This document shows, in pieces, positions 3,268 to 13,582 of a stretch of 13,582 bases of DNA. This stretch comes from Candidatus Aenigmatarchaeota archaeon (GTDB lineage Archaea; Aenigmatarchaeota; Aenigmatarchaeia; PWEA01; JAGHBM01), in contig JAGLWW010000007.1 in the NCBI GenBank assembly GCA_023133195.1, positions 1 through 13,582 on the forward strand. Reading direction: 5' to 3'. The translations under genes were made by a program, and so were the position numbers. Under the pieces are notes generated by a model. That model did not search any database, was not told the origin of the DNA, and saw only the letters and a list, made by a program, of their open reading frames with translations. Position 1 is the stretch's first letter. Each line of letters begins with the position of its first letter.

Positions 3268-5823
3268 TTACTTGTTTGGTCTTAGTTTCCAGAATGTCAG
3301 AAACCCTATTACGAATGCCAGGAGACCCACGAAAATCAGTCTTTGTGTTTCTCCGAAATTTTCAGGAGGAGATGGCTGCTCGGCTTTTTCTTCTTTGATT
3401 TCTTTTTCTGGAGTTTCTTCTACTTCCCCAGGCTCCTCTGTTTCGGATAAAACTTCTCCAGTTACAGCAAATACAGAGAAACCCGGTGTATCCGCTTCAT
3501 AAGTGTAATAATCACTATCCTGTCCAACAAGTCTTGTTTTTAGTTTCTCCCATCCATTTTTATACCTATTCAAGACTATGGTATCCTTATCTATGTTGTT
3601 ACTATTTATCCAAGCTTTGTTGATCTCAAATCTAATTTTAGCTGATTCTATATTGTCATCTTCGAGATTTTCCGTGTTTATCTCCATGTATTTGTAGACT
3701 TTTCCGCTGACCTCGTGGACAACCGAGGCAGGTTTTCCTGCCAGTTTGGTCACGGTTATTTTGACGTTGTTGACCTGGTTATTCACGGAGACCTGTATTT
3801 GCTTGAAGCATATTTCCTTGTCGGTTATCTTCATTATCACAACCCTGCCTGGGGTTATCTTATCCCATATTTTGGTTTCTTTATGATAATGAACAGATCC
3901 GCCACCGAAACCACCGAGAGTGGTTGTTGTAGTAGTTGTTGTAGTAGTGGTGATGTCGAATTGTGCGTAAGTGATAAACTTGGTAAAGTGCTTGGTCCAT
4001 ATCACAAGATTTGGACCTGAATCTATTTTGCAGTTCCCCTCGTTTCCAAGTTCATTTCCTGCAGATTGTGTGTCGTTCGAACAGATTGTTGTGGTGGGAT
4101 AAAATGTACCGGATCTTAAATAGCCTGCATATTTGCCTGCCTCTCCCGGAATCAGAATGCTTACTGCCTTACCCAGCGTTAGCCTTTCATCAAAGTATCC
4201 CGTTTCAATTACAAAAGAAACAGTGGCTATCTTGCCTGCATCTGGGGTTACGTTAACGGATGAATTTTCCATTATAATGGGCAAGTTAATTATACAGTTC
4301 CAGCTAGTAGAGGCTGTGATTGTGAGGTCTGCTGGAATAAAAACTTTTACGGTTCCTATGGTTCTATTGGAACTGATGTTGATACTACCAGTAAGCGTGG
4401 CATTTGTTGTGATATTTGATGAATTGTCAAGCAGAGCCAAATTCAAAGTAACGTTGACTACATTAACCAGAACGGTAATGTTAGCCGCGGTGTTGTTTGG
4501 TGGTACGATGACTTCTGTGTGATTTGAGCCGACAGTTGTACTATCATTCAAGAAGACGTGATTTTCAGCTGACAGAACGGTCCTTTCTTCATCATAATAA
4601 TACGGCCAGAAAGTGACGTTGTCGCTTATATTGTTTCCTTGTCCGTCTGGATTTGATATCGTATGATAAGGCCCGTACGCATTTCCCCAATAATTCAGAG
4701 TGGCATTCACAGTTTCGACATTTATGTTATTAATTCCATAATTATTATTATCATAAATCTTATTATAATGAACAGTTATACCAGCGGATTCTATATATAT
4801 CCCCGTATCACCCAAGCTTATGTCATTTCCGCTGACGTTATTATTGCTAGACGAACCATCAAAGTATATACCTTCCCCCTTATTGCCAGAAAGTGTGTTT
4901 TCGGAGATTGTGTTGTTGGATGAACCACTTAAATATGTTCCGCTCTCGTTGCTACCTGTAATGTTATTTCCGGAGATTGTGTTGCTGGATGAATCAAAAA
5001 TATCAATACCCCTATAGTTTTTGGAGATTATGTTTTCGGAGATTGTGTTGCTATTAGAGGAGGTTTCTAGAATTATACCAGAGTCAAAATTCAATTCTAT
5101 GTTGTTTGTAGAAATTGTGTTAAAGAAAGATTCTTCAAAATAGATTCCATCCCCGTCATTGTTTGAAATTATGTTATTGTATATTGTATTGTAGTTACTT
5201 GTATACATCTCTATCCCGTAATCATTTCCTGTAAGATTATTCTCAGAGATTGTATTGTAGAATGAATCTTCTGACAAGATACAATCAAGGCCATTGCCTG
5301 AAATGGAGTTATAAGATATTGTGATATTGTTTGATTCTGAAAGATATACGCCAAGATAGTTATCAGTAATATTAATATTACTGATATTGTTATAGTTTGA
5401 ATTTATGCTTATCCCTGCATCATAGCCAGTTATGCCGCTTCCGTTTATAGTAAACCCGCTTATGTTTACCCAATCGGAGGTGATGTAAACGGTATTCCCG
5501 CTTCCGCCGCCGTCGATAGTCGTGGTGTCTTTGTTCTGGCCAACAAGATTTATCGTCTTGTTAACTATCACGTTCTCATAATAAATCCCGTTGTAGACAT
5601 TAATTGTGTCTCCGGAATTTGCATTATTAATCGCACTCTGTATGGAGGTGTAATTGCATCCGCTGGGACATACAGTGATGGTTGCTGCCATCACACCTTT
5701 GGAGTTAAGTAAAAGGGATAATGTCATGACAAAAAATAAAATCAGAAATTTCAATGAATTATTTAGTTTAGAGTAACGGCCGTTAGAAAATAGCTTTAAA
5801 GCTACCACAAATGTATTTTTCAT
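3268..5823 (-). CDS. Membrane-anchored surface protein with NosD-like beta-helix and PGF-pre-PGF-type domain
   Basis: An 851-residue envelope protein. Residues 23-47 form a hydrophobic signal peptide (LKFLILFFVMTLSLLL), preceded by a longer than usual N-region. Residues about 48-405 are a right-handed parallel beta-helix of the NosD/pectate-lyase-like type: imperfect 22-24 residue turns with recurring NTIS-N and GI-- motifs, ending at the typical NYWGNAYGP. Residues 410-620 look like a beta-sandwich. Then come eleven consecutive Thr (625-635), a Gly-rich turn, a domain ending PGFSVFAVTG that matches the archaeal PGF-pre-PGF type, an acidic Pro/Glu-rich stalk (about 790-825), one transmembrane helix (829-847) and a short basic tail. 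Many Asn-X-Ser/Thr sites suggest glycosylation. Beta-helices of this kind often bind or cut polysaccharide, but no catalytic residues can be named here. It probably faces outward as an adhesin or envelope component. Confidence 0.88.
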   Translation of the reverse strand: MKNTFVVALKLFSNGRYSKLNNSLKFLILFFVMTLSLLLNSKGVMAATITVCPSGCNYTSIQSAINNANSGDTINVYNGIYYENVIVNKTINLVGQNKDTTTIDGGGSGNTVYITSDWVNISGFTINGSGITGYDAGISINSNYNNISNINITDNYLGVYLSESNNITISYNSISGNGLDCILSEDSFYNTISENNLTGNDYGIEMYTSNYNTIYNNIISNNDGDGIYFEESFFNTISTNNIELNFDSGIILETSSNSNTISENIISKNYRGIDIFDSSSNTISGNNITGSNESGTYLSGSSNNTISENTLSGNKGEGIYFDGSSSNNNVSGNDISLGDTGIYIESAGITVHYNKIYDNNNYGINNINVETVNATLNYWGNAYGPYHTISNPDGQGNNISDNVTFWPYYYDEERTVLSAENHVFLNDSTTVGSNHTEVIVPPNNTAANITVLVNVVNVTLNLALLDNSSNITTNATLTGSINISSNRTIGTVKVFIPADLTITASTSWNCIINLPIIMENSSVNVTPDAGKIATVSFVIETGYFDERLTLGKAVSILIPGEAGKYAGYLRSGTFYPTTTICSNDTQSAGNELGNEGNCKIDSGPNLVIWTKHFTKFITYAQFDITTTTTTTTTTTLGGFGGGSVHYHKETKIWDKITPGRVVIMKITDKEICFKQIQVSVNNQVNNVKITVTKLAGKPASVVHEVSGKVYKYMEINTENLEDDNIESAKIRFEINKAWINSNNIDKDTIVLNRYKNGWEKLKTRLVGQDSDYYTYEADTPGFSVFAVTGEVLSETEEPGEVEETPEKEIKEEKAEQPSPPENFGETQRLIFVGLLAFVIGFLTFWKLRPNK
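4902..5260 (-). repeat. Coding repeats forming beta-helix turns
   Basis: Six related copies of a segment resembling CGGAGATTGTGTTG (plus strand) start at 4902, 4971, 5037, 5109, 5178 and 5244. Their spacings of 69, 66, 72, 69 and 66 bp are all multiples of three and equal 22-24 codons, one beta-helix turn each. On the coding strand they encode the recurring NTIS(E/T)N-type motif. The copies have diverged and the sequence between them is different, so this is a protein repeat rather than a CRISPR array or recent tandem duplication. Confidence 0.75.
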
Positions 5824-6132: not shown

Positions 6133-6444
6133 ATGGCAACTATAGAATCTATAAACAGGGTAAGAGATAACATATACGTGACTTCTTCCATTTCCGAGAA
6201 AGAAAACAAGACAATAAAATTTCATAAGAATGTGCTTATATTGCCAGAGGAATTTGAAGACTCCCTGACTACAGGAAAGCTTGGAAACAGCAACAGGATA
6301 ATGCTACCGAAAAAAATTCTCAAAAGACATGATATAGAACTGCATGGAAAGGTCCCTGCAAGGATTTTTGGAATAGGAAATAAAAAATTCCTTCTTATAA
6401 AACTTGATGAAAAAAAGGTCGGCGTGCCTCAATTCAAGGAGTGA
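6133..6444 (+). CDS. Small protein with AbrB/MazE-like swapped-hairpin segment
   Basis: A 103-residue protein. The C-terminal half (about residues 52-95) reads RIMLPKKILKRHDIEL, then a Lys-Val-Pro strand and KKFLLIKL. This is the pattern of AbrB/SpoVT-type DNA-binding domains (R-x-x-L-P-K-x-I followed by two strands). The N-terminal half (NRVRDNIYVTSSI and on) is not recognised and may be a second small beta unit. If the assignment is right, it would act as a dimeric transcription factor or as an antitoxin-like regulator; no toxin gene is adjacent. It is the first gene of a plus-strand cluster, and its stop codon lies within the SD of the KaiC-like gene, so the two are likely co-translated. 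The domain call rests on pattern recognition only. Confidence 0.6.
   Translation: MATIESINRVRDNIYVTSSISEKENKTIKFHKNVLILPEEFEDSLTTGKLGNSNRIMLPKKILKRHDIELHGKVPARIFGIGNKKFLLIKLDEKKVGVPQFKE
6436..6444 (+). promoter_or_regulatory. Strong SD that fixes the KaiC-like start
   Basis: AAGGAGTGA overlaps the stop codon of the upstream gene and lies 4 nt before the ATG at 6449 (7 nt counting from GGAG). This selects 6449 over an ATG at 6404, which would add 15 residues outside the conserved domain and overlap the upstream gene by 41 bp. Confidence 0.75.
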
Positions 6445-6448
6445 TATT

Positions 6449-7135
6449 ATGATAAAAACAGGTCTGCCTTATATGGACAAACTGCTCGGCGGGGGATTGC
6501 CAGAGAATACTGTCATTCTTATTTCAGGAGGCCCTGGCACAGGAAAGACGCTTTTTGGTCTGAATTTTCTTTTGGAAGGCTCCAAAGGGGGAGAAAAGTG
6601 CTGTTATGTCAGTCTTATGGAAAACAAGTCTGAACTTTTGCGGGCATGCAGAGGTTTTTCCACCTTGAAAAAACTGGAAGAATACGGCGACAAGAGCTTT
6701 GTGATTCAGGAATTGAAACTGAACGGGGAGGGTTCGGTAAAGCATGACAGTTTTAACCTGAATCAGTTCGTAAAACTCTTCAATCATTATCCCAAAATAG
6801 AAAGGATTGTAATTGATAACGTAAACAAACTTTTGATTTATGCTAAAGATAAAAAAGAGTATAGAAGATGCTTTTCTGACCTTATAAGAGAACTCAAAAA
6901 GAGGTTCACATGCTCCCTGATTTTATGCGAAACTGATGGGAAACTGGATTCGGGGAACGGAGAAGCCTTTGAATGTGACGGTATCGTGCATCTGTCATTT
7001 ATTGAAATGGAAGAGAAGCCAAAAAGGACTCTGGAAATCCATAAACTGAGGTACTCTGCATTCGAGCCAAAAATACCGCACGAGTTTATAATAGGCAAGG
7101 AAGGGTTAAAGCTGTCGAAAACAACATTAATATAA
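6449..7135 (+). CDS. Single-domain KaiC-like (RecA-superfamily) ATPase
   Basis: A 228-residue protein made of one RecA/KaiC-type domain. It starts with the family-typical TGLPYMDKLLGGGLPENT, has Walker A GGPGTGKT at 27-34 and a Walker B strand IERIVID ending at D123. After the second strand KaiC proteins usually carry an acidic pair (LEE); here it reads LMEN, so only E58 remains and ATPase activity may be altered. KaiC-like proteins in archaea are widespread, often sit with signalling genes, and are thought to work as nucleotide-dependent switches; ArlH and GvpD are relatives. No archaellum or gas-vesicle genes are present here. The gene is coupled to the AbrB-like gene upstream and followed 38 bp later by the V4R-like gene, suggesting one signalling unit. 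Confidence 0.85.
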   Translation: MIKTGLPYMDKLLGGGLPENTVILISGGPGTGKTLFGLNFLLEGSKGGEKCCYVSLMENKSELLRACRGFSTLKKLEEYGDKSFVIQELKLNGEGSVKHDSFNLNQFVKLFNHYPKIERIVIDNVNKLLIYAKDKKEYRRCFSDLIRELKKRFTCSLILCETDGKLDSGNGEAFECDGIVHLSFIEMEEKPKRTLEIHKLRYSAFEPKIPHEFIIGKEGLKLSKTTLI

Positions 7136-7138
7136 TTT

Positions 7139-7151
7139 AAAGGAATCCTTT
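7139..7151. repeat. Short palindrome between the KaiC-like and V4R-like genes
   Basis: AAAGGAATCCTTT is a perfect 13-bp odd palindrome lying 22 bp before the V4R-like start. An AT-rich TATA-like patch (ATTAATATAATTTA) just precedes it. It may be an operator for an internal promoter, or chance in an AT-rich spacer. Confidence 0.35.
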
Positions 7152-7173
7152 CATATCATTTGGAGAGAATGAA

Positions 7174-8187
7174 ATGAGACTTTCTTATTCCTTGAACAAA
7201 AATATTTTTGAAGCTACTGTAGGCAGCCTCGTCAACAAGCTTCATTTGAGCAAAAGGAGGGATACGCTTTTTTTCGAGGATATATTCATAAATTACATTA
7301 AGGAATGCGAAGACGCCGGCCATGGTGAAGAGATGAAAAGGATTGGCCAGAAATGGATGGCTGTAAGTTTTAAAACCCTTATGCCGAGTGCATTGGAGAG
7401 ATTACCTCCCGTGATAATACTTAATATGTTTATGAAAAATGTGTGGATTAATTTGGGTTTAATGAAAAATTTTCATGCCAATAAAACAGGAGATATTATT
7501 GAGATAAGGACAGAGAACGAGGCAATAACAAAAGTTATCGGAAATAATTATTTTTCCGTTGGTCTTTTCATAGGAATTTTAAACATAATATTTGGTTCTC
7601 AAGTTGATGTCATTGAAGTCTCACAAAGGGAAATTTTCAGTAAATACGTCTTCAAAATTAAACATGGAAACCCTTATAAAATTAATTCTAAAAGCAAAAA
7701 AACGTATGATAAGCTGAATTATTTAGCTCCGATTAAGGGATTTACATTAAGAGACTCCTTCAAAAGAAATATTTTTCAGTTAAAGGAAGGTAATAAAATT
7801 TACTTTAGAGATAAATCTTTGTATACAGTAGAAAATACGATTTTCCACCTGTTGGGCAACTCGGAAATACTATTAGAAAGAATTCCGTATATTTCATATG
7901 ATTATTTCAAAGAAATCATAAGGAAATCTTCAAGCAAAGAAAAATTTGTTCTTCTCAAGACGCTTTTGCAGATAATGGGATGGGGTATAATAACCGTCGT
8001 GTACAGGGAAGATTATATAGTCGTGGATATAAAAAATCCTCCATTCGGTTTGCAGAAAGAAAAGGACAACTGGAATTTTTTGATTCAAACCATTCTCGGT
8101 TATTTGTGGGTTATAGATAAAAAGTTCAATCTCGGGGATGTTGTAGAAACCTATAAAAATATTAAAATAACATATTCCAAAAATTAA
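7174..8187 (+). CDS. Protein with two degenerate V4R-like (ligand-sensing) domains
   Basis: A 337-residue protein that appears to contain two related domains. The first (about 1-165) ends SVGLFIGILNIIFGSQVDVIE then KYVFKIK, matching the end of V4R domains, where the usual form is a helix, an E-x-C-x-x-x-G-x-x-x-C strand and F-x-I. Both cysteines are replaced here (EVSQREIFSKYVFKI). The second (about 175-337) ends FLIQTILGYLWVIDKKFNL, then VVETYKNIKITYS, with the same pattern. V4R domains bind small hydrophobic ligands in XylR/DmpR-type sensors and bacteriochlorophyll 4-vinyl reductase. Loss of cysteines argues against metal binding. No signal peptide or clear membrane segment is seen. Start ATG 7174 has GGAGAG 7 nt upstream. 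Codon use seems more AT-rich than its upstream neighbour. Its 3' end overlaps the convergent radical SAM gene by 4 bp. Confidence 0.65.
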   Translation: MRLSYSLNKNIFEATVGSLVNKLHLSKRRDTLFFEDIFINYIKECEDAGHGEEMKRIGQKWMAVSFKTLMPSALERLPPVIILNMFMKNVWINLGLMKNFHANKTGDIIEIRTENEAITKVIGNNYFSVGLFIGILNIIFGSQVDVIEVSQREIFSKYVFKIKHGNPYKINSKSKKTYDKLNYLAPIKGFTLRDSFKRNIFQLKEGNKIYFRDKSLYTVENTIFHLLGNSEILLERIPYISYDYFKEIIRKSSSKEKFVLLKTLLQIMGWGIITVVYREDYIVVDIKNPPFGLQKEKDNWNFLIQTILGYLWVIDKKFNLGDVVETYKNIKITYSKN

Positions 8188-9239
8188 CTAGATTGTATTC
8201 TGTCCTTGCACCAATAATCGTAACCGTCTGAGTATTTTCTTCTCGTGTAACAACCGCCGCTGCATTTGGTTAAAAATTCACATCCTTCGCATTTTGACAG
8301 AATTCCACGCAATTGAACGAATTCTGCCAATTTGTCTCTATAGACCTTTTCTAAAGTCTCTCCGTTTGTGTCTTTGAAAACATTGAACATCGGCTCTCTG
8401 TTTGTAACACAGTAATAGACTTCTCCGTCAAATGATATATTTATAAGAAGGCCTGCTCTGGCCACACATGGTATGTTAGTTATATCAAGATTTGTCTCGT
8501 AGTCCAGCGGGAAAAAAGGTTCCCCCGACTCGATGTGTATGGCCCCGTTCTCATATGCAAATTTATCCAACTTCTTTAAAGTCTCTATGTAATTGGTGGG
8601 TCTAAGGTCCATTTTTCCCTTTGCAAAACCCACGGGCATCATATCCCACGTCCTGCATCTCTCTGTACCCAAACTTCTTCCAAGTTTGAAGATGTCAAAG
8701 ATTTCATTTTCATTCATCTTTGTGAGAACCGTCTGACAGACAGGTGTCATACCCGCTTCCTTTACGTTTTTCAAAGCCTTCACCGCTCTCTGAAACGAAC
8801 CTTCCTTACCCCTTATTTTGTCGTGTTTTTTGGGGTCAATACTATCTATGTTTGTCTGTACCTGAGAAAGACCAAGGCTTTTCAATTCTTTTGCCATCTC
8901 CCTTGTAATCAGATACCCGTTAGAGTTCATGTGAACCACAAAACCATAATCTTTTGCAATTTTTACCGCTTCTCTGATGTATGGATACATGGTAGGCTCT
9001 CCGCCGGAATATGTAATCTGTCTTACCCCTGAATCTGCAAGATTCCCAACCAACTTTGTAAGATTTTCCTTGCTCATATGATTTGAACTGTATCCAGAAC
9101 TTGCATAACACCACTTGCAATTGAAATTACAACTATTCGTAACTTCTATCACGGCCCACACCATTGTTCTTTTCTTTTTGAATTGCGCGGCCTTTTCCTT
9201 TGCATCCGTCTCCTTCCAGTCAAATGTAACCATGCACAT
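8184..9239 (-). CDS. Radical SAM/SPASM enzyme
   Basis: A 351-residue radical SAM enzyme. The SAM-binding 4Fe-4S cluster motif CNFNCKWC is at C37, C41 and C44, and the SAM-contacting SGGEP is at 78-82. The C-terminal SPASM domain is complete: C258, then G272 with C277, then C317-x2-C320-x5-C326-x3-C330, and C344. These seven cysteines fit the full SPASM pattern for two auxiliary 4Fe-4S clusters. SPASM enzymes modify peptides (sactipeptides, PQQ), enzymes (anSME) or tetrapyrroles (AhbD-like haem synthesis); which applies here is unknown. It is the last gene of an operon with a UbiA prenyltransferase and a homocitrate-synthase-family enzyme. The UbiA stop codon sits inside its SD-like GGGGGTGTGA, and ATG 9239 is 6 nt after GGTG, which favours this start over ATG 9233. 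Confidence 0.88.
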   Translation of the reverse strand: MCMVTFDWKETDAKEKAAQFKKKRTMVWAVIEVTNSCNFNCKWCYASSGYSSNHMSKENLTKLVGNLADSGVRQITYSGGEPTMYPYIREAVKIAKDYGFVVHMNSNGYLITREMAKELKSLGLSQVQTNIDSIDPKKHDKIRGKEGSFQRAVKALKNVKEAGMTPVCQTVLTKMNENEIFDIFKLGRSLGTERCRTWDMMPVGFAKGKMDLRPTNYIETLKKLDKFAYENGAIHIESGEPFFPLDYETNLDITNIPCVARAGLLINISFDGEVYYCVTNREPMFNVFKDTNGETLEKVYRDKLAEFVQLRGILSKCEGCEFLTKCSGGCYTRRKYSDGYDYWCKDRIQSS

Positions 9240-9242
9240 ATT

Positions 9243-10007
9243 TCACACCCCCAAAATAAGCCAAAAGACCAAGAAGATGAAAGAACACCCCTCACAGGAA
9301 TGAGCAAGAGTGGGCTTGTTCTTTAAGAGGAAGTAGAGCATGACCATGGTGAAAGGTAGGAAGACGATGAAACCCGAGAAAAATAGTATCAAAAAAGAAA
9401 ATATACTTAGCAGGACGAAAATTATTTTTTTACCTGCATCATACCCAAGATATACGGGCAGAGTCCTTATGTTATTTGCCGCGTCGCCATCGTAGTCCCT
9501 CAGGTCGGATATAGCGCTACCGATGAAAATGAAGAATGACAAAAGAATGTAGTATTCGATTATTTCAGAGGTCAAGTAGGTTGCACCAAGCAGGAAGACC
9601 AAGGTGGCCCCAAAACCAGTGTAAAAGTTTTTTACGAGAAAATGTTTCTTTAGTTTGAAAAAGGAATAGGCAAAACTTATGACAATACCTAACAAACAAA
9701 AAATAAGGGAATAAAAAGACAGAAAAGTTGAGAAAAAGAATCCCAAGGAAAATAAAACTATGATGACAAGATAACTTCTCTTGTCAAGGACAAAGGAATT
9801 CAACTCCTTTCTGTTTATCAAATCTTCTTCCTTGTCGGTCATGTTGTTGTATGCGTAAGATCCTGCAACCGCAAAGAAACAAGTCAGTGTAACAAAGAAA
9901 AGGTTTGTAGACAGGGGGTTAAACAAGAGATAACCTATTATGCCTATGCACGTTACGAAGATGCATATCCTGAATCTGATAAATCCCAAAAAATCACTAA
10001 TTCTCAA
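9243..10007 (-). CDS. UbiA-family membrane prenyltransferase
   Basis: A polytopic membrane protein of 254 residues with about eight or nine hydrophobic segments. Both Asp-rich motifs of the UbiA superfamily are present: NNMTDKEED (N54, D58, D62) and DLRDYDGD (D168, D171, D175), the latter followed by IRTLPVYLG, the usual continuation. These bind magnesium and the prenyl diphosphate. Relatives prenylate 4-hydroxybenzoate, menaquinone precursors, haem or, in archaea, geranylgeranylglyceryl phosphate. The stretch after the first motif (NRKELNSF) lacks the common NRPxRP form, so the acceptor may be unusual. I choose TTG at 10007, giving MRISDFLGFIRF, because AGGGGTGATT lies just upstream. An upstream ATG at 10049 would run 53 bp into the preceding gene. 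The gene overlaps that gene by 11 bp. A C-terminal CEGC pair sits in the last hydrophobic region. Confidence 0.85.
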   Translation of the reverse strand: MRISDFLGFIRFRICIFVTCIGIIGYLLFNPLSTNLFFVTLTCFFAVAGSYAYNNMTDKEEDLINRKELNSFVLDKRSYLVIIVLFSLGFFFSTFLSFYSLIFCLLGIVISFAYSFFKLKKHFLVKNFYTGFGATLVFLLGATYLTSEIIEYYILLSFFIFIGSAISDLRDYDGDAANNIRTLPVYLGYDAGKKIIFVLLSIFSFLILFFSGFIVFLPFTMVMLYFLLKNKPTLAHSCEGCSFIFLVFWLILGV

Positions 10008-11139
10008 AAAAATCACCCCTAAAATTAGTTTTGAAAAGGTCCCACACATCAGATTCGGAAAGAGATTTCTTGTTGGACTCAGAAAAGGTCTTTACCTTTT
10101 TAAGCAAATCTCTTACTTCTTCATTAGATGGCTTGTAATCGTTCAGAACGTATCTAAGACCCGATCCTCCAGTATGTTTGCCGAACAAAAATTTTCTCTT
10201 CCGTCCCACAATCTCGGGGTTGAAGTTCTCATAGGTCCTCGTATCCTTGAGCATCCCGTTTACATGAATTCCGCTCTCATGAGTGAAGGCGTTTTCACCG
10301 GTTATCGGTTTGTGCTTCTGAAGGCGCACGCCGGAGTACTTCTCAACCAGGCCGCACATCTCCTTGATGCTCTTGTAGTTTACTTTCAAATCTAAACCAT
10401 AGAGATACTTGAGTGCCACACACACCTCCTCTATCGGGGCGTTGCCTGCCCTTTCGCCTATTCCATTAAATGTTCCGGAGAAACCATCTACACCCGCGCT
10501 TAAGGCGGCCAAGACGTTGGCGGTTGCCATACCAAAATCGTTGTGACCGTGTACGCATAATTTGCATTTGCACTCTTTTTTCAACCTCTTGAAAAAGTCA
10601 TAAGTCTGGAAAGGGGTCATACAACCCAGAGTATCTGCAGGCAAAAAGTATTCTACGTGGAGCTTGTTGATAAAATCTATAAGATAATTTATGTCAGCTC
10701 TAGTGGCATCTTCAACTCCGAAATCCAGTTTTACGCCGTGCTCTCTTGTGAAATCTATCATCTCTAAAGACCTACTCAGGTTCTCCTCCCTAGTGATTTT
10801 CAGCTTGCGTTCCAGATGTAGGTCAGAAATCGAGGTGAAGAGCATTATCCTCTGGACGCCACATTCCAAGGCCTTTTCTATGTGTTCTTTCTTTAGCATA
10901 CAATCTGCAGTTATTTCAGAATCGAGACCCATGCCTGCAAGTTGCTTTGTCAAAGTTGCTTCAGAATCAGATATGGAAGGCATTAAATTTATGAAATGAC
11001 AGCCGAATTCGGAGGACTTTACAGCAAGTTCTACCTTTTCCTCGGGTCGGAACACCACCCCCGGCATCTGTTCCCCATCTCTCAAGGTTGTATCAAAAAT
11101 CTTCACAGTCTTGGAAAACTTATGTTTAATCCCCCACAC
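9997..11139 (-). CDS. Homocitrate / isopropylmalate synthase family enzyme (AksA/NifV/LeuA-like)
   Basis: A 380-residue enzyme of the HMG-CoA-lyase-like family that condenses acetyl-CoA with a 2-oxoacid. Key motifs: FDTTLRDGEQMPGVVF (D16 metal ligand, R20, E23), GVEDATRAD, HGHNDFG (H197 and H199 metal ligands), GIGERAGNAPIEEV, and ESGIHVNGM (H292, late catalytic region). The GEQ-PGVVF form and the short length, with no LeuA regulatory domain, favour the homocitrate synthase branch (AksA, NifV) over 2-isopropylmalate or citramalate synthase. The 2-oxoacid cannot be fixed from sequence, and a Re-citrate synthase is also possible. Start GTG 11139 is the only candidate near the TATA box, because an in-frame stop lies just upstream. 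GTG 11106 is the alternative. It is the first gene of the operon and overlaps the UbiA gene. Confidence 0.85.
   Translation of the reverse strand: MWGIKHKFSKTVKIFDTTLRDGEQMPGVVFRPEEKVELAVKSSEFGCHFINLMPSISDSEATLTKQLAGMGLDSEITADCMLKKEHIEKALECGVQRIMLFTSISDLHLERKLKITREENLSRSLEMIDFTREHGVKLDFGVEDATRADINYLIDFINKLHVEYFLPADTLGCMTPFQTYDFFKRLKKECKCKLCVHGHNDFGMATANVLAALSAGVDGFSGTFNGIGERAGNAPIEEVCVALKYLYGLDLKVNYKSIKEMCGLVEKYSGVRLQKHKPITGENAFTHESGIHVNGMLKDTRTYENFNPEIVGRKRKFLFGKHTGGSGLRYVLNDYKPSNEEVRDLLKKVKTFSESNKKSLSESDVWDLFKTNFRGDFFEN
10012..10020 (-). promoter_or_regulatory. SD site that fixes the UbiA TTG start
   Basis: AGGGGTGAT on the minus strand, complementary to the archaeal 16S rRNA tail (GGTGAT core), lies inside the 3' end of the homocitrate-synthase-family gene, 4 nt before TTG 10007. 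It implies translational coupling of the two genes. Confidence 0.65.
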
Positions 11140-11160
11140 CCATTTATTAAATGTTTATAC

Positions 11161-11170
11161 TTATATAAAT
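11161..11170 (-). promoter_or_regulatory. TATA box for the three-gene minus-strand operon
   Basis: ATTTATATAA on the minus strand is centred about 26 bp before GTG 11139, matching a leaderless start. No SD precedes that GTG. Confidence 0.5.
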
Positions 11171-11192
11171 TACTTAGCTGTTTGTTTATAAG

Positions 11193-11204
11193 ATGTTTAA
11201 ACAT
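11193..11204. promoter_or_regulatory. Perfect palindrome between the operon and the Lrp-type gene
   Basis: ATGTTTAAACAT is a perfect 12-bp palindrome in the 136-bp divergent region. Related half-sites ATGTTTATA (11151-11159) and TGTTTATA (11183-11190) lie between it and the operon start, overlapping or flanking the operon TATA box. AT-centred palindromes repeated at a promoter suit an Lrp-type regulator, so this may be the site through which the adjacent regulator controls the operon or itself. Confidence 0.45.
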
Positions 11205-11230
11205 TCAAGATATTAATATAAACAATACAA

Positions 11231-11240
11231 ATATTAAATA
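11231..11240 (+). promoter_or_regulatory. TATA-like box for the Lrp-type gene
   Basis: ATATTAAATA is placed to start transcription near 11260, giving a leader of about 15 nt that contains the GAGGGG SD (11263-11268) before GTG 11276. Confidence 0.4.
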
Positions 11241-11275
11241 GTGGGATTGATATTCCAATTTTGAGGGGTTTATTT

Positions 11276-11830
11276 GTGAAACTTACTAAAAATGAAAAGA
11301 AGGTTTTAAAATTACTACTTGAGAATTCAAGAATATCAGACATAGAAATAGCCTCCAAGTTAAACATATCTAGCCAAGCTGTAGGAAAAATAAGAAAAAA
11401 ATTGGAAGCAACAATAATAGATTCTTATACCTTAAATTTGGATTGCTGCATGTTAGATATAAGGATTTTTGCAATAGCAATAGCGCAACTGACAAAAGAA
11501 GGCTTGGGTAAGGGAGAATCTGAAATAGAAAAAATATTATTAAAAATTCCTCATATTATTAATGTTTACAGAATAACGAGGGGAACTTCTAGCTATATTA
11601 TTTTATACGGTTTTAGAGATATGAATGAATTGGACGATTTTTTCCGTTCATCCGAAATGAGACAGGAACTTCACGACTTTATAGAAACTCAAGAACTATT
11701 TACCTTTTCTCATAAAAGCGTGGTCAAAAATAGCTCCGTACAGCTATTTAATAAAGCGATGGATGATATGGGAAGCAGAGTTTCAAGGTTAGAATTTGAA
11801 AATTTCAAAAGGAGATTGAATACAAGATAA
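11276..11830 (+). CDS. Lrp/AsnC-type transcription regulator
   Basis: A 184-residue protein. Residues 3-44 form a winged helix-turn-helix (KLTKNEKKVLKLLLEN, then SDIEIASKLNISSQAVGKI). This is followed by a ligand-binding RAM-like alpha/beta region with HIINVYRITRGTSSYIILYG and a helix DMNELDDFF, matching the V--Y--TG-YD-- layout of Lrp/AsnC proteins. A C-terminal extension of about 40 residues beyond the usual length (SHKSVVKNSS onward) looks helical and may aid assembly. I choose GTG 11276 because GAGGGG lies 7 nt upstream; TTG 11261 would add five residues and swallow that SD. The gene is divergent from the homocitrate-synthase-family / UbiA / SPASM operon, so it is a good candidate regulator of that operon, probably responding to an amino acid or 2-oxoacid. 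Its codon use is AT-rich compared with the operon. Confidence 0.75.
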   Translation: MKLTKNEKKVLKLLLENSRISDIEIASKLNISSQAVGKIRKKLEATIIDSYTLNLDCCMLDIRIFAIAIAQLTKEGLGKGESEIEKILLKIPHIINVYRITRGTSSYIILYGFRDMNELDDFFRSSEMRQELHDFIETQELFTFSHKSVVKNSSVQLFNKAMDDMGSRVSRLEFENFKRRLNTR

Positions 11831-11849: not shown

Positions 11850-13582
11850 TTATGGTCCGTAAGAGTACTCTGACCTTTTCTTCTTCATATTGAATATTTC
11901 CTCTCTTTTCCAGTATGCTATTGCCCCGATGAATATTATTACGAAAACGAGACTAACCAGAAGTTGTGTATTTACGCCTTCAGGCAGTCCTGGTATTGTA
12001 ATAAATGGTTTTTCTCCGCCAACATCTTCTTCCTTTATTCCTTCTTCATCCTCTTCCGGTCCTTCTTTGATTGTGGTGGTGGCCTCTTCACCTTCCACTG
12101 TTGTTGTAGTTGTGTCGCCTCCGCTGGATCCACCGCCTCCGCCAGAAACGGTAGTCGTTGTCTCACCTGCCGATGTTGTGAATGTAGTTGAATTTGAATA
12201 AGTCATAATGTTGCCTGCTGTATCGTTGCAACGCACATAGTAAGTATACTGGGTTGAGGAAGACAAACCTGTCAAGGCAGCGGTGTGAGTGGTTCCTCCT
12301 GTGGTGTTGAAAACATCCATGGTTAAATAGCTGCCGTCAGTGTCGTTGTAGCGGCAAATAGAACTTTCATCTGTTGTCACGGATAATGTGGCGCTGCCGG
12401 TTGTTATGTCGGAGGAGGATACATCCGTAACTTGCGGTGAAGTGGTATCGCTCACGGAAAAGTTGAAAACTTCCTGCGTGCTTTGGTTGTTCAGGTCAGT
12501 GCAGTTTATTGTCATGTCATAGTTGCTATTGGCGATTCCGCTTAAAGTAGTCGTATAGGTTCCTGTGGTACCTACCCATGAGAATGAATTGTTGGTCAGA
12601 GTTGTATAGTTTATTTCTGCTCCTGTGCTGTTTGTAAGGTTATACCAACAGAAATCCTCCTTTGGATTGGATTCCTTGGCCGTAAAGGTGAAAGTGAAAT
12701 AACTGTTGTCTACCTCTGAGTTGTTTTCAGGCGAGGTCATGTTTATCGTTGGGCCAACTGTGTCGTCTCCCAGAGCACCTCCGGATAAGTGAGGTATATA
12801 CAGAGTTACGTTGTCGGTTGTGTTCGTGTAGCAGGCATCATTTACATTGGTACAGTTGATAGCAGTATTGTTATAGCATTGACCCAGCTTGTAAATAGTA
12901 TCACCTGTATCATCTTCTATGTAAAGAACATCATAACTTCCGACGGAATGATTGATAAATATGTTCGTGCCTTTATCGTATTTATCATCAGGCAGGAAAT
13001 TGTTTAATTTCTTGAAGACTACTATCTGCTTTATCTTCGTGCCTGCATTAGAACCCGTGTTATTTGCTATAACACTGGCGTTGTCCACTTCTATGTCAAA
13101 GTTCTCGTCCCAGTTTGCATCCAAGCCGTTGAATTTCACTATTTTTACAAAGACAAAAGTACCTGAACTGTTTACTTCCATTTCCATTAAGAAAGATTTG
13201 TTTGCGTTTTCATTGTCACCCATTGATGTCCCATTCGCGTGCTTTAAGGTTATGTTCTTCAACAGGTTTGTGTTATTTATATGAATCTCAATCTCATCAA
13301 GTTCTTTGGTTTTGTTCAGTGTCATATTAACTATAAATGATACGTAACTTGAATTAACGGCACTTGGCCCATAATCATCACTATCATTGACATAGAAAAT
13401 TATGTGGTGCGTACCCAAACCAAAAGTGGCAGTAGTGTTGTTTACCTCGCCCGTGACATAGTTCTTGGTTGTGTTGCTGTCCTTTGTGTACCATGTCATG
13501 TTTACTCCCGTGCCGGAATCGCTCACGCTCCAGTTTATCTCCACGGAACTGCCTTCATATAAGGTCCCGTTTACAGGTTTTC
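11850..13582 (-). CDS. Surface protein with Ig-like and fibronectin-III modules, C-terminally anchored (5' part missing)
   Basis: The frame is open to the right edge of the window, so the N-terminus and any signal peptide are missing; GTG 13544 is internal. The 576 visible residues contain an Ig-like segment (EINWSVSDSGTGVNMTWYT), a middle beta-rich region with several cysteines, an Ig-like module starting GPTINMTSPENNSEV, and a fibronectin-III-like module from SPQVTDVSSSDITTGSATL to NSTTFTTSAG. Then come a Thr/Gly stalk (TTTTVSGGGGGSSGG, TTTTT), an acidic Glu-rich segment, a transmembrane helix (LLVSLVFVIIFIGAIAYW) and a basic tail ending SEYSYGP. Numerous Asn-X-Ser/Thr sites suggest glycosylation. 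The anchor has the same layout as the beta-helix protein at 3268-5823, although the PGF-pre-PGF type domain is absent. Likely role: cell-surface adhesion or envelope structure. It converges with the Lrp-type gene, 19 bp apart. Confidence 0.85.
   Translation of the reverse strand, partial: KPVNGTLYEGSSVEINWSVSDSGTGVNMTWYTKDSNTTKNYVTGEVNNTTATFGLGTHHIIFYVNDSDDYGPSAVNSSYVSFIVNMTLNKTKELDEIEIHINNTNLLKNITLKHANGTSMGDNENANKSFLMEMEVNSSGTFVFVKIVKFNGLDANWDENFDIEVDNASVIANNTGSNAGTKIKQIVVFKKLNNFLPDDKYDKGTNIFINHSVGSYDVLYIEDDTGDTIYKLGQCYNNTAINCTNVNDACYTNTTDNVTLYIPHLSGGALGDDTVGPTINMTSPENNSEVDNSYFTFTFTAKESNPKEDFCWYNLTNSTGAEINYTTLTNNSFSWVGTTGTYTTTLSGIANSNYDMTINCTDLNNQSTQEVFNFSVSDTTSPQVTDVSSSDITTGSATLSVTTDESSICRYNDTDGSYLTMDVFNTTGGTTHTAALTGLSSSTQYTYYVRCNDTAGNIMTYSNSTTFTTSAGETTTTVSGGGGGSSGGDTTTTTVEGEEATTTIKEGPEEDEEGIKEEDVGGEKPFITIPGLPEGVNTQLLVSLVFVIIFIGAIAYWKREEIFNMKKKRSEYSYGP

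Follow-up and report, generated by a model that had tools for sequence, protein, structure and literature searches.

Three enzyme genes lying end to end on one strand of an archaeal contig (Candidatus Aenigmatarchaeota archaeon, assembly GCA_023133195.1, contig JAGLWW010000007.1) raise the question of whether they serve one pathway, and what that pathway would make. The window referred to below is the whole 13,582-nucleotide stretch of this contig that was analysed.

Layout and distribution of the island

On the minus strand, genes for a homocitrate/isopropylmalate-synthase-like enzyme of its own subfamily (9997..11139, first gene of the operon, 380 aa, HMGL-like and HCS_D2 domains), a UbiA prenyltransferase (UbiA-A, 9243..10007, PF01040) and a radical SAM/SPASM enzyme (8184..9239, 351 aa, PF04055, N-terminal signature MCxVTFDW) overlap or abut, confirming the positions and strand given by an earlier, sequence-only reading. 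Under a first-start rule the UbiA ORF runs from 9243 up to 10049; the TTG at 10007, preceded by AGGGGTGAT and in agreement with the starts of related proteins, appears to be the better start, and with it the 11-bp synthase/UbiA overlap proposed in that reading is exact. The UbiA-A stop codon also lies inside the next Shine–Dalgarno sequence as claimed, the TGA sitting within GGGGGTGTGA immediately upstream of the SPASM ATG. A divergent Lrp/AsnC-like HTH regulator (11261..11830, plus strand, HTH_24 E 7e-8), whose membership of the island is uncertain, is separated from the operon by an AT-rich intergenic region (11140..11260) with imperfect direct and inverted repeats, a possible operator.

The limits first drawn, 8184..11139, are correct for the trio but too narrow, as the conserved unit continues on the opposite strand to ~6133. 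Facing the SPASM gene, and overlapping its end by 4 nt, is the gene for a 337-aa sensor-like protein, cl1 (7174..8187, plus strand), accompanied by a KaiC-family ATPase (ORF 6404..7135, plus strand, true start probably inside it near 6449; PF06745, 147 bits against a cut-off of 26.6) and by cl5, a small AbrB/MazE-like putative DNA-binding protein (6133..6444, plus strand). These convergent genes (6133–8187) had been missed, and it is they, rather than the other members of the trio, that are the constant partner of UbiA-A.

Among 156 genomes of the phylum, UbiA-A was found in 17 and cl1 in 16, with both in 15 (Fisher p 7e-18, a value that ignores kinship); in G152, G080, and G143, which show one gene alone, the contig ends within the island. 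The two genes are convergent, tail to tail with 0 or 1 gene between them, on all 14 contigs that carry both, and KaiC lies upstream of cl1 on every contig that continues, either adjacent or separated by aminotransferase/FAD genes. The constant core of the island is UbiA-A facing the ~337-aa cl1, and the remaining enzymes vary: nine genomes add the SPASM enzyme, five add the synthase and a second UbiA, two add neither, and the window's genome alone has both SPASM enzyme and synthase. Close SPASM relatives occur in 10 of the 156 genomes (this one included), and all 10, like all six genomes of the synthase clade, are UbiA-A genomes. Of the 16 other UbiA-A genomes, eight have UbiA-A adjoining the SPASM gene, as do two named contigs, and in five other genomes UbiA-A and the synthase gene lie in one run on the same strand; in G055 UbiA-A and the SPASM gene are on separate contigs, each at a contig end. 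Because these UbiA-A/SPASM and UbiA-A/synthase pairs recur elsewhere, the adjacency of the trio is not due to chance, and the proposal of one co-made operon is supported by the neighbourhood comparison that had been suggested as a check. The exact trio itself occurs once, as a hybrid in which two forms of a conserved island are combined.

Of 19 UbiA-A loci, 11 carry genes for histidine kinases, receivers or DUF835-type proteins, with a Cache region in two of the four kinases scanned and a 7TM sensor region in one; the other eight loci have none, and no histidine kinase or receiver gene is found in the window. In G060 a second operon of KaiC, V4R-like and UbiA genes with overlapping ORFs adjoins the island (L035, 1146–3849). 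Its V4R match is weak (E 0.017/0.061), and the V4R-like protein gives a 4% hhalign probability with cl1 (E 0.01); neither protein has a plasmid match. Our literature search recognised no paper on this gene set, in line with the earlier view that the trio is not a known pathway, and an earlier mention of cl1 in a paper on KaiC hubs is possible; the island appears to be conserved yet undescribed.

The three enzymes and their possible products

The synthase matches HMGL-like (204 bits) and HCS_D2 (71 bits) in Pfam and is above the curated cut-off in none of the 25 NCBIfam families listed as matches, with a top score of 387 bits against a cut-off of 517 (LEU1_arch 378 against 484.75; NifV 347 against 462.9). 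Phylogenetic placement, likewise suggested earlier, puts it with its relatives in a six-member clade (support 99/98). All six retain LRDGEQ and HxHND, which we take to be catalytic/metal residues of the HMGL barrel, and have an ExGxP substrate loop one residue shorter (-MP); the residue aligned with the homocitrate synthase (HCS) His is D, T, or S, the Arg two residues further on is replaced by Met in four of the six, and no LeuA regulatory domain was found. The closest solved relative is 6ktq. Aconitase family PF00330 was undetected in five of the six synthase genomes, the window's included, and present in G144; over all island genomes, which are incomplete, it was found in 2 of 17 against 14 of 14 controls. 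The tree, the scores below cut-off and the missing aconitase family led us to reject an ordinary leucine, lysine or nitrogenase synthase.

UbiA-A scores 87 bits on PF01040 (cut-off 34.2) and keeps both Asp motifs, with D72, D182, and D189 invariant and D76 conserved in 90% or more of 13 aligned rows. Its best solved relative is DGGGP synthase (E 1.6e-19), with chlorophyll synthase and 4-hydroxybenzoate-type UbiA also among its solved relatives. On the DGGGP synthase model PRK12882 it reaches 43 bits, where the cut-offs for that enzyme are 296 and 353; two paralogues from related genomes score 252 and 261, likewise under 296, and UbiA-A groups apart from these DGGGP-synthase-like paralogues with support 92/94, in a tree with some long branches. 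Score and tree led us to reject a DGGGP synthase, with the reserve that the window's genome (80% complete) has no other PF01040 match, so that no paralogue there argues against a role in lipids.

Isoprenoid chemistry, as suggested earlier, is likely, and some neighbourhoods have isoprenoid links. In G055 two small genes separate UbiA-A from those for type 2 IPP isomerase and isopentenyl phosphate kinase, and the contig also carries AcnX and UbiX. In G036, a genome from which UbiA-A is absent, the closest outgroup SPASM gene (35% identity) belongs to a mevalonate run, where it and another SPASM gene are flanked by polyprenyl synthase and isopentenyl phosphate kinase. Set against a dedicated signal or sensor ligand, a quinone-like carrier or unusual lipid, two of the products first proposed, are possible but poorer explanations of the linkage to a sensor and KaiC. 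For a membrane lipid, UbiA-A (with the second UbiA) would prenylate a non-glycerol hydroxy-acid backbone and the SPASM enzyme modify the chains as tetraether synthase does, with cl1 and KaiC merely regulating the lipid composition. The solved relative of UbiA-A, the lack of another UbiA in this genome, the two UbiAs in five synthase-type loci, a GG-reductase-like FAD enzyme at one of these (G039) and the second place of tetraether synthase (7tol) among the SPASM profile matches fit such a product; the patchy distribution (17/156), the one to four further UbiA genes in all 12 other island genomes tested and the strict linkage to a sensor-like protein make it rather doubtful. A redox carrier built on an aromatic acceptor, with cl1 as a redox sensor, would agree with UbiA family chemistry, with the chlorophyll synthase and 4-hydroxybenzoate-type relatives and with the UbiX-type flavin prenyltransferase of G055. 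However, the islands showed no recognisable gene for ring formation, and the combination of UbiX, AcnX and isopentenyl phosphate kinase instead matches the archaeal mevalonate route, which leaves an electron-carrying product unlikely.

The SPASM enzyme matches Radical_SAM (PF04055, 115 bits), and the Pfam SPASM model gives no match on it. The CX3CX2C cysteines (37, 41, and 44) and seven SPASM cysteines (258, 277, 317, 320, 326, 330, and 344) are nevertheless conserved in all nine full-length relatives aligned, so the two auxiliary clusters predicted earlier are well founded. Of 88 families matched, 25 were listed, and the enzyme stays under the cut-off of every one of these. No close relative was found on plasmids (29% top identity in the best 10 of 373 records) or on viral contigs (34% at best among at least 80 loci listed). 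The best solved profile match is SkfB, and many SPASM enzymes mature peptides, so a small peptide modified by this enzyme and UbiA (a prenylated RiPP) was considered as the signal; it would leave the synthase unexplained, no ORF of at least 60 aa lies between the UbiA-A and SPASM genes, and we regard it as quite unlikely. NirJ2 (143 bits) and AhbD (116 bits) are among the top family matches, but with cut-offs of 500, and none of the 17 island genomes yielded HemB, against 11 of 14 controls that did; the AhbD-like haem tailoring offered earlier as an alternative is thus not upheld.

Could the three simply be neighbours from ordinary pathways, a homocitrate/isopropylmalate synthase, a DGGGP synthase and a stray radical SAM enzyme? 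Family-level annotation would allow it, and the exact trio was met once. That uniqueness was one of two results expected of unconnected genes; the other, an ordinary pathway for each, was not borne out. The sub-cut-off scores, the separation of UbiA-A from DGGGP-synthase-like paralogues and the undetected aconitase (in five of six synthase genomes, this one included) and HemB place none of the trio in an ordinary pathway, the subfamilies are distinct, and pairs are conserved across families. The neighbourhood data refute this explanation, to which we give next to no weight.

The putative sensing side and the proposed pathway

cl1 has no significant Pfam match, no V4R match (PF02830, three cl1 proteins scanned, E up to 5) and no sequence match to any solved structure. 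Its predicted structure (pLDDT 84.6) retrieved 11 PDB chains in Foldseek at E ≤ 0.001, namely 10 H-NOX chains and the TRAPP protein TPC6, with a moderate best E of 2.7e-4 and TM values by target length of 0.39–0.45 for H-NOX and 0.61 for TPC6. The predicted fold thus bears a moderate resemblance to V4R/H-NOX/TRAPP. Both halves of the model have helices and strands in the same order, for which a tandem V4R repeat was considered; the C-terminal half alone gave no Foldseek match at E ≤ 0.001, and the two halves align with an hhalign probability of 0.2%. In cl5 the LTTGKLGNSNRIMLPKK motif is nearly invariant (13-row alignment), and the match to MazE_antitoxin is weak (E 0.064).

With H-NOX as the main fold match, NirJ2 and AhbD among the top SPASM families and chlorophyll synthase a UbiA relative, a prenylated tetrapyrrole (haem O/chlorophyll-like) made for a haem sensor would be conceivable. 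The H-NOX haem motif is YxSxR, which is present in none of nine cl1 proteins examined; together with the missing HemB and the SPASM scores far under cut-off, this largely refutes the haem reading and makes it very unlikely, haem import from a host being the only way out.

What is observed is that the genes are linked and co-occur, that catalytic motifs are intact, that some neighbourhoods hold isoprenoid genes and that the fold resemblance is moderate; the reactions, ligand and direction of signalling that we infer are as follows. UbiA-A would join an isoprenoid chain to a small acceptor, the prenyl donor coming from the ordinary polyprenyl synthase of the cell. In this genome the synthase may supply or modify that acceptor through condensation of acetyl-CoA and a 2-oxo acid, and radical chemistry by the SPASM enzyme would complete the product. 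cl1 would then bind the hydrophobic product and signal via the neighbouring KaiC-family ATPase and the AbrB-like protein. We put the probability of such a dedicated isoprenoid small-molecule pathway, with its product sensed by cl1 and passed to KaiC, at a little under one half (about 0.48); cl1 and KaiC could also regulate the genes for a reason other than binding the UbiA product. More speculative, and on balance improbable, is a new archaeal class of isoprenoid signal, a prenylated molecule with swapped tailoring enzymes (synthase and second UbiA, SPASM, or both) and a V4R-fold/KaiC receptor, serving in something like quorum or partner recognition. Exchangeable tailoring enzymes around a constant core are what one would expect of a diversifying signal or specialised metabolite. 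If the proposal is true, the KaiC signalling networks of archaea gain a definite ligand made by the cell itself and a receptor that can be tested, and small-genome organisms a hydroxy-acid/prenyl/radical pathway.

Comparison with known systems

The synthase shares the HMGL barrel, LRDGEQ, HxHND, and a post-HMGL domain with homocitrate, isopropylmalate and citramalate synthases (NifV, LysS, LeuA, CimA), but differs in its own clade, shortened loop and changed HCS His/Arg positions. UbiA-A shares PF01040 and both Asp motifs with DGGGP synthase and with further UbiA prenyltransferases (6m31, 4tq3, 4od4), whereas its low PRK12882 score and tree group set it apart from DGGGP synthase. With NirJ2, GeoRSP, SkfB, and Tes the SPASM enzyme has CX3CX2C and the seven-Cys SPASM region in common, unlike them in its MCxVTFDW N-terminus, sub-cut-off scores and UbiA gene partner. 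cl1 bears a moderate structural resemblance to the V4R/H-NOX/TRAPP (Bet3, TPC6)/YslB fold, but is without Pfam sequence match or haem motif, and the fold of its C-terminal half is uncertain.

KaiC-like ATPases are signal-transduction hubs in archaea (Makarova, Galperin, and Koonin, 2017, as summarised in PMC5847659; referenced in PMC6393860). No link between KaiC and a prenyltransferase operon was met in our literature search. In common with these hubs, island loci have a KaiC-family ATPase in the vicinity of kinase and receiver genes, DUF835/KaiC-like proteins and a protein resembling the V4R/H-NOX type of fold; unlike them, the island has as its constant partner a biosynthetic operon centred on a prenyltransferase.

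Gene order in the window and across the phylum

The minus-strand trio (synthase, UbiA prenyltransferase and radical SAM/SPASM genes) is real and is part of a conserved island, in which UbiA faces the plus-strand genes of a sensor-like protein (cl1), a KaiC-family ATPase and a small AbrB/MazE-like protein (cl5); no description of it was found in the paper searches made. Re-reading of ORFs and positions from the sequence bore out the three frames and the spacing proposed in the sequence-only reading: taking the TTG at 10007, which a strong ribosome-binding site precedes, as the UbiA start gives the 11-nt synthase/UbiA overlap, and the radical SAM gene's ribosome-binding site does contain the UbiA stop codon. 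The 3′ ends of the radical SAM gene and of convergent cl1 (7174–8187, plus strand, downstream of KaiC and cl5) overlap by 4 nt. The window is one entire contig of an 827-kb genome (178 contigs, 80% complete). The stretch 11140–11260, which separates the synthase from a divergent Lrp-like regulator, holds imperfect direct and inverted repeats and is a possible operator. A gene for tetraether lipid synthase (Tes) is cut by the contig start, leaving its C-terminal portion at 1–825 (NF045702, 266 bits, cut-off 450), and, judged by eye, large repeat-rich surface-type proteins with Thr linkers and C-terminal membrane anchors lie on either side of the island (3268–5823 and 11850–13582).

Among 156 phylum genomes, the window's UbiA subfamily (UbiA-A) occurs in 17, cl1 in 16 and both in 15, although the Fisher value (p = 7e-18) is only indicative because the genomes are incomplete and related. 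Neither was found in any of the 13 further genomes that make up the rest of the window's order (0/13 for each). Close SPASM relatives are present in 10 genomes, with one further distant relative in G036, and all 10, like all six synthase genomes, carry UbiA-A. Of the 17 UbiA-A genomes, nine are SPASM-only (G022, G028, G050, G055, G060, G080, G143, G154, G155), five synthase-only (G039, G070, G135, G144, G145), the window's has both and two have neither (G041, G065). Contigs L028 and L029, counted beside the 156, hold two more SPASM-type loci.

UbiA-A and cl1 are convergent on 14/14 contigs holding both, being directly adjacent on five (G039, G041, G135, G144, G145) or separated by a SPASM gene on seven (G000, the window's genome; G022, G028, G050, G060, G154, L028), by a second UbiA on one (G070) and by a polyprenyl-synthase-like gene on one (G065). 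This last gene is divergent (L074 10250–11170; PF00348, 46 bits) and occupies the SPASM gene's place. Island pieces in G055 and G155 are split over separate contigs, each ending within the island. KaiC is upstream of cl1 at every locus whose contig continues (15 loci), either next to it or, in G039, G070 and G135, with genes for an aminotransferase and an FAD enzyme in the gap, and cl5 accompanies 14 of these (exception G144). We have high confidence that UbiA-A is functionally linked with cl1/KaiC.

Synthase-type loci follow the order synthase, second UbiA (UbiA-B), UbiA-A in four of five; the second UbiA of G070 is of another type (23% identity, outside the UbiA-B group) and is placed after UbiA-A. 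Three of the five have an aminotransferase gene close to cl1; in G144 none separates KaiC from cl1, and in G145 the contig ends too soon to show one. A GG-reductase-like FAD enzyme (142 bits, cut-off 159) is a further gene of the G039 locus. Genes of kinase, receiver or DUF835 type were found at 11/19 loci and not in the window; of four kinases scanned, two carry a Cache and one a 7TM sensor region. In the trees, the window's UbiA-A groups with G041 (97/93), whereas its SPASM (87/96) and cl1 (94/92) group with G055/G154, the cl1 tree being mostly unresolved. This difference in partners suggests, with moderate support, a mosaic island whose tailoring genes have been swapped.

Proteins of the putative sensor side

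KaiC scored above its Pfam cut-off, and a Pfam search gave no significant match for cl1 or cl5. The stretch LTTGKLGNSNRIMLPKK of cl5, almost invariant in 13/13 alignment rows, has the look of an AbrB/MazE hairpin, by eye and from a MazE match (E 0.064). Matches to the whole-protein model of cl1 are led by H-NOX (E 2.7e-4 at best; TM 0.42 by target length), followed by human TPC6 (E 4.1e-4; TM 0.61), with a weaker match to YslB (E 0.011). The C-terminal half searched by itself brought no match under E 0.001, and its profile does not align with that of the N-terminal half. Passages of two papers link V4R to the haem-NO-binding domain (PMC5847659) and to TRAPP subunit Bet3 (PMC2253512). In G060 a second operon of overlapping KaiC, V4R-like and UbiA ORFs adjoins the island (L035 1146–3849); its UbiA is outside the UbiA-A group and its V4R-like protein matches XylR_N (E 0.017) and V4R (E 0.061) weakly.

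Isoprenoid enzymes and the proposed product

UbiA belongs to PF01040, and its five best curated models score 43–65 bits against cut-offs of 238–353. In a tree with several very long-branched rows, UbiA-A forms a single group of 19 (92/94), separate from a ten-member group that includes the two paralogues reaching 252 and 261 bits with the DGGGP-synthase model, both below its cut-off of 296. The radical SAM enzyme matches NirJ2 best (143 bits, cut-off 500) and clears no cut-off among the 25 families listed (88 matched), with a like outcome for four scanned relatives; its ten cluster cysteines are all kept in 9/9 full-length relatives.

A polyprenyl synthase (PF00348) is encoded in 16/17 island genomes, the window's included. 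In G055, two small genes separate UbiA-A from the genes for isopentenyl phosphate kinase and type 2 IPP isomerase, and the same contig encodes AcnX and UbiX. In G036, where a genome search found no UbiA-A, two adjacent SPASM genes lie between polyprenyl synthase and isopentenyl phosphate kinase within a mevalonate run (L037 2567–11169).

With moderate confidence, the island makes its own isoprenoid ligand; our confidence in any structure for it is low. The reading that we favour, at close to even odds (about 0.48), is that the trio makes an isoprenoid small molecule that is sensed by cl1 and passed to KaiC. That the island enzymes instead make an unusual membrane lipid seems rather unlikely. 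A PF01040 survey of the island genomes (all but G135, G143, G144 and G145) gave 2–5 matches in each of 12 others and UbiA-A as the sole match in the window's genome. This lack of a second UbiA in the window's genome and the H-NOX TM-scores of cl1, which are below 0.5, slightly lowered the weight of the ligand reading and raised that of the lipid.

Comparison with known enzymes and sensors

The haem motif characteristic of H-NOX was sought in nine cl1 proteins and found in none (0/9).

The synthase has HMGL-like and HCS_D2 (Pfam) domains and reaches the cut-off of 0/25 matched NCBIfam families. Its six members, from 6/156 phylum genomes (639–662 bits; next best 226), form one clade (99/98) separate from the NifV, LeuA and CimA references (AksA left out) and the phylum's paralogues used. 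Aconitase-family isomerases occur in just 2/17 island genomes, G144 being the one synthase-bearing genome of these; direct use of the hydroxy acid is therefore possible. The pocket His of homocitrate synthase (6ktq/3ivs) is matched in the alignment by D, T or S in all six synthases, and the Arg two residues past this His by Met in four of the six; the ExGxP loop of all six is one residue shorter (-MP). With such a pocket, 2-oxoglutarate in its usual binding mode is unlikely to be the 2-oxo acid.
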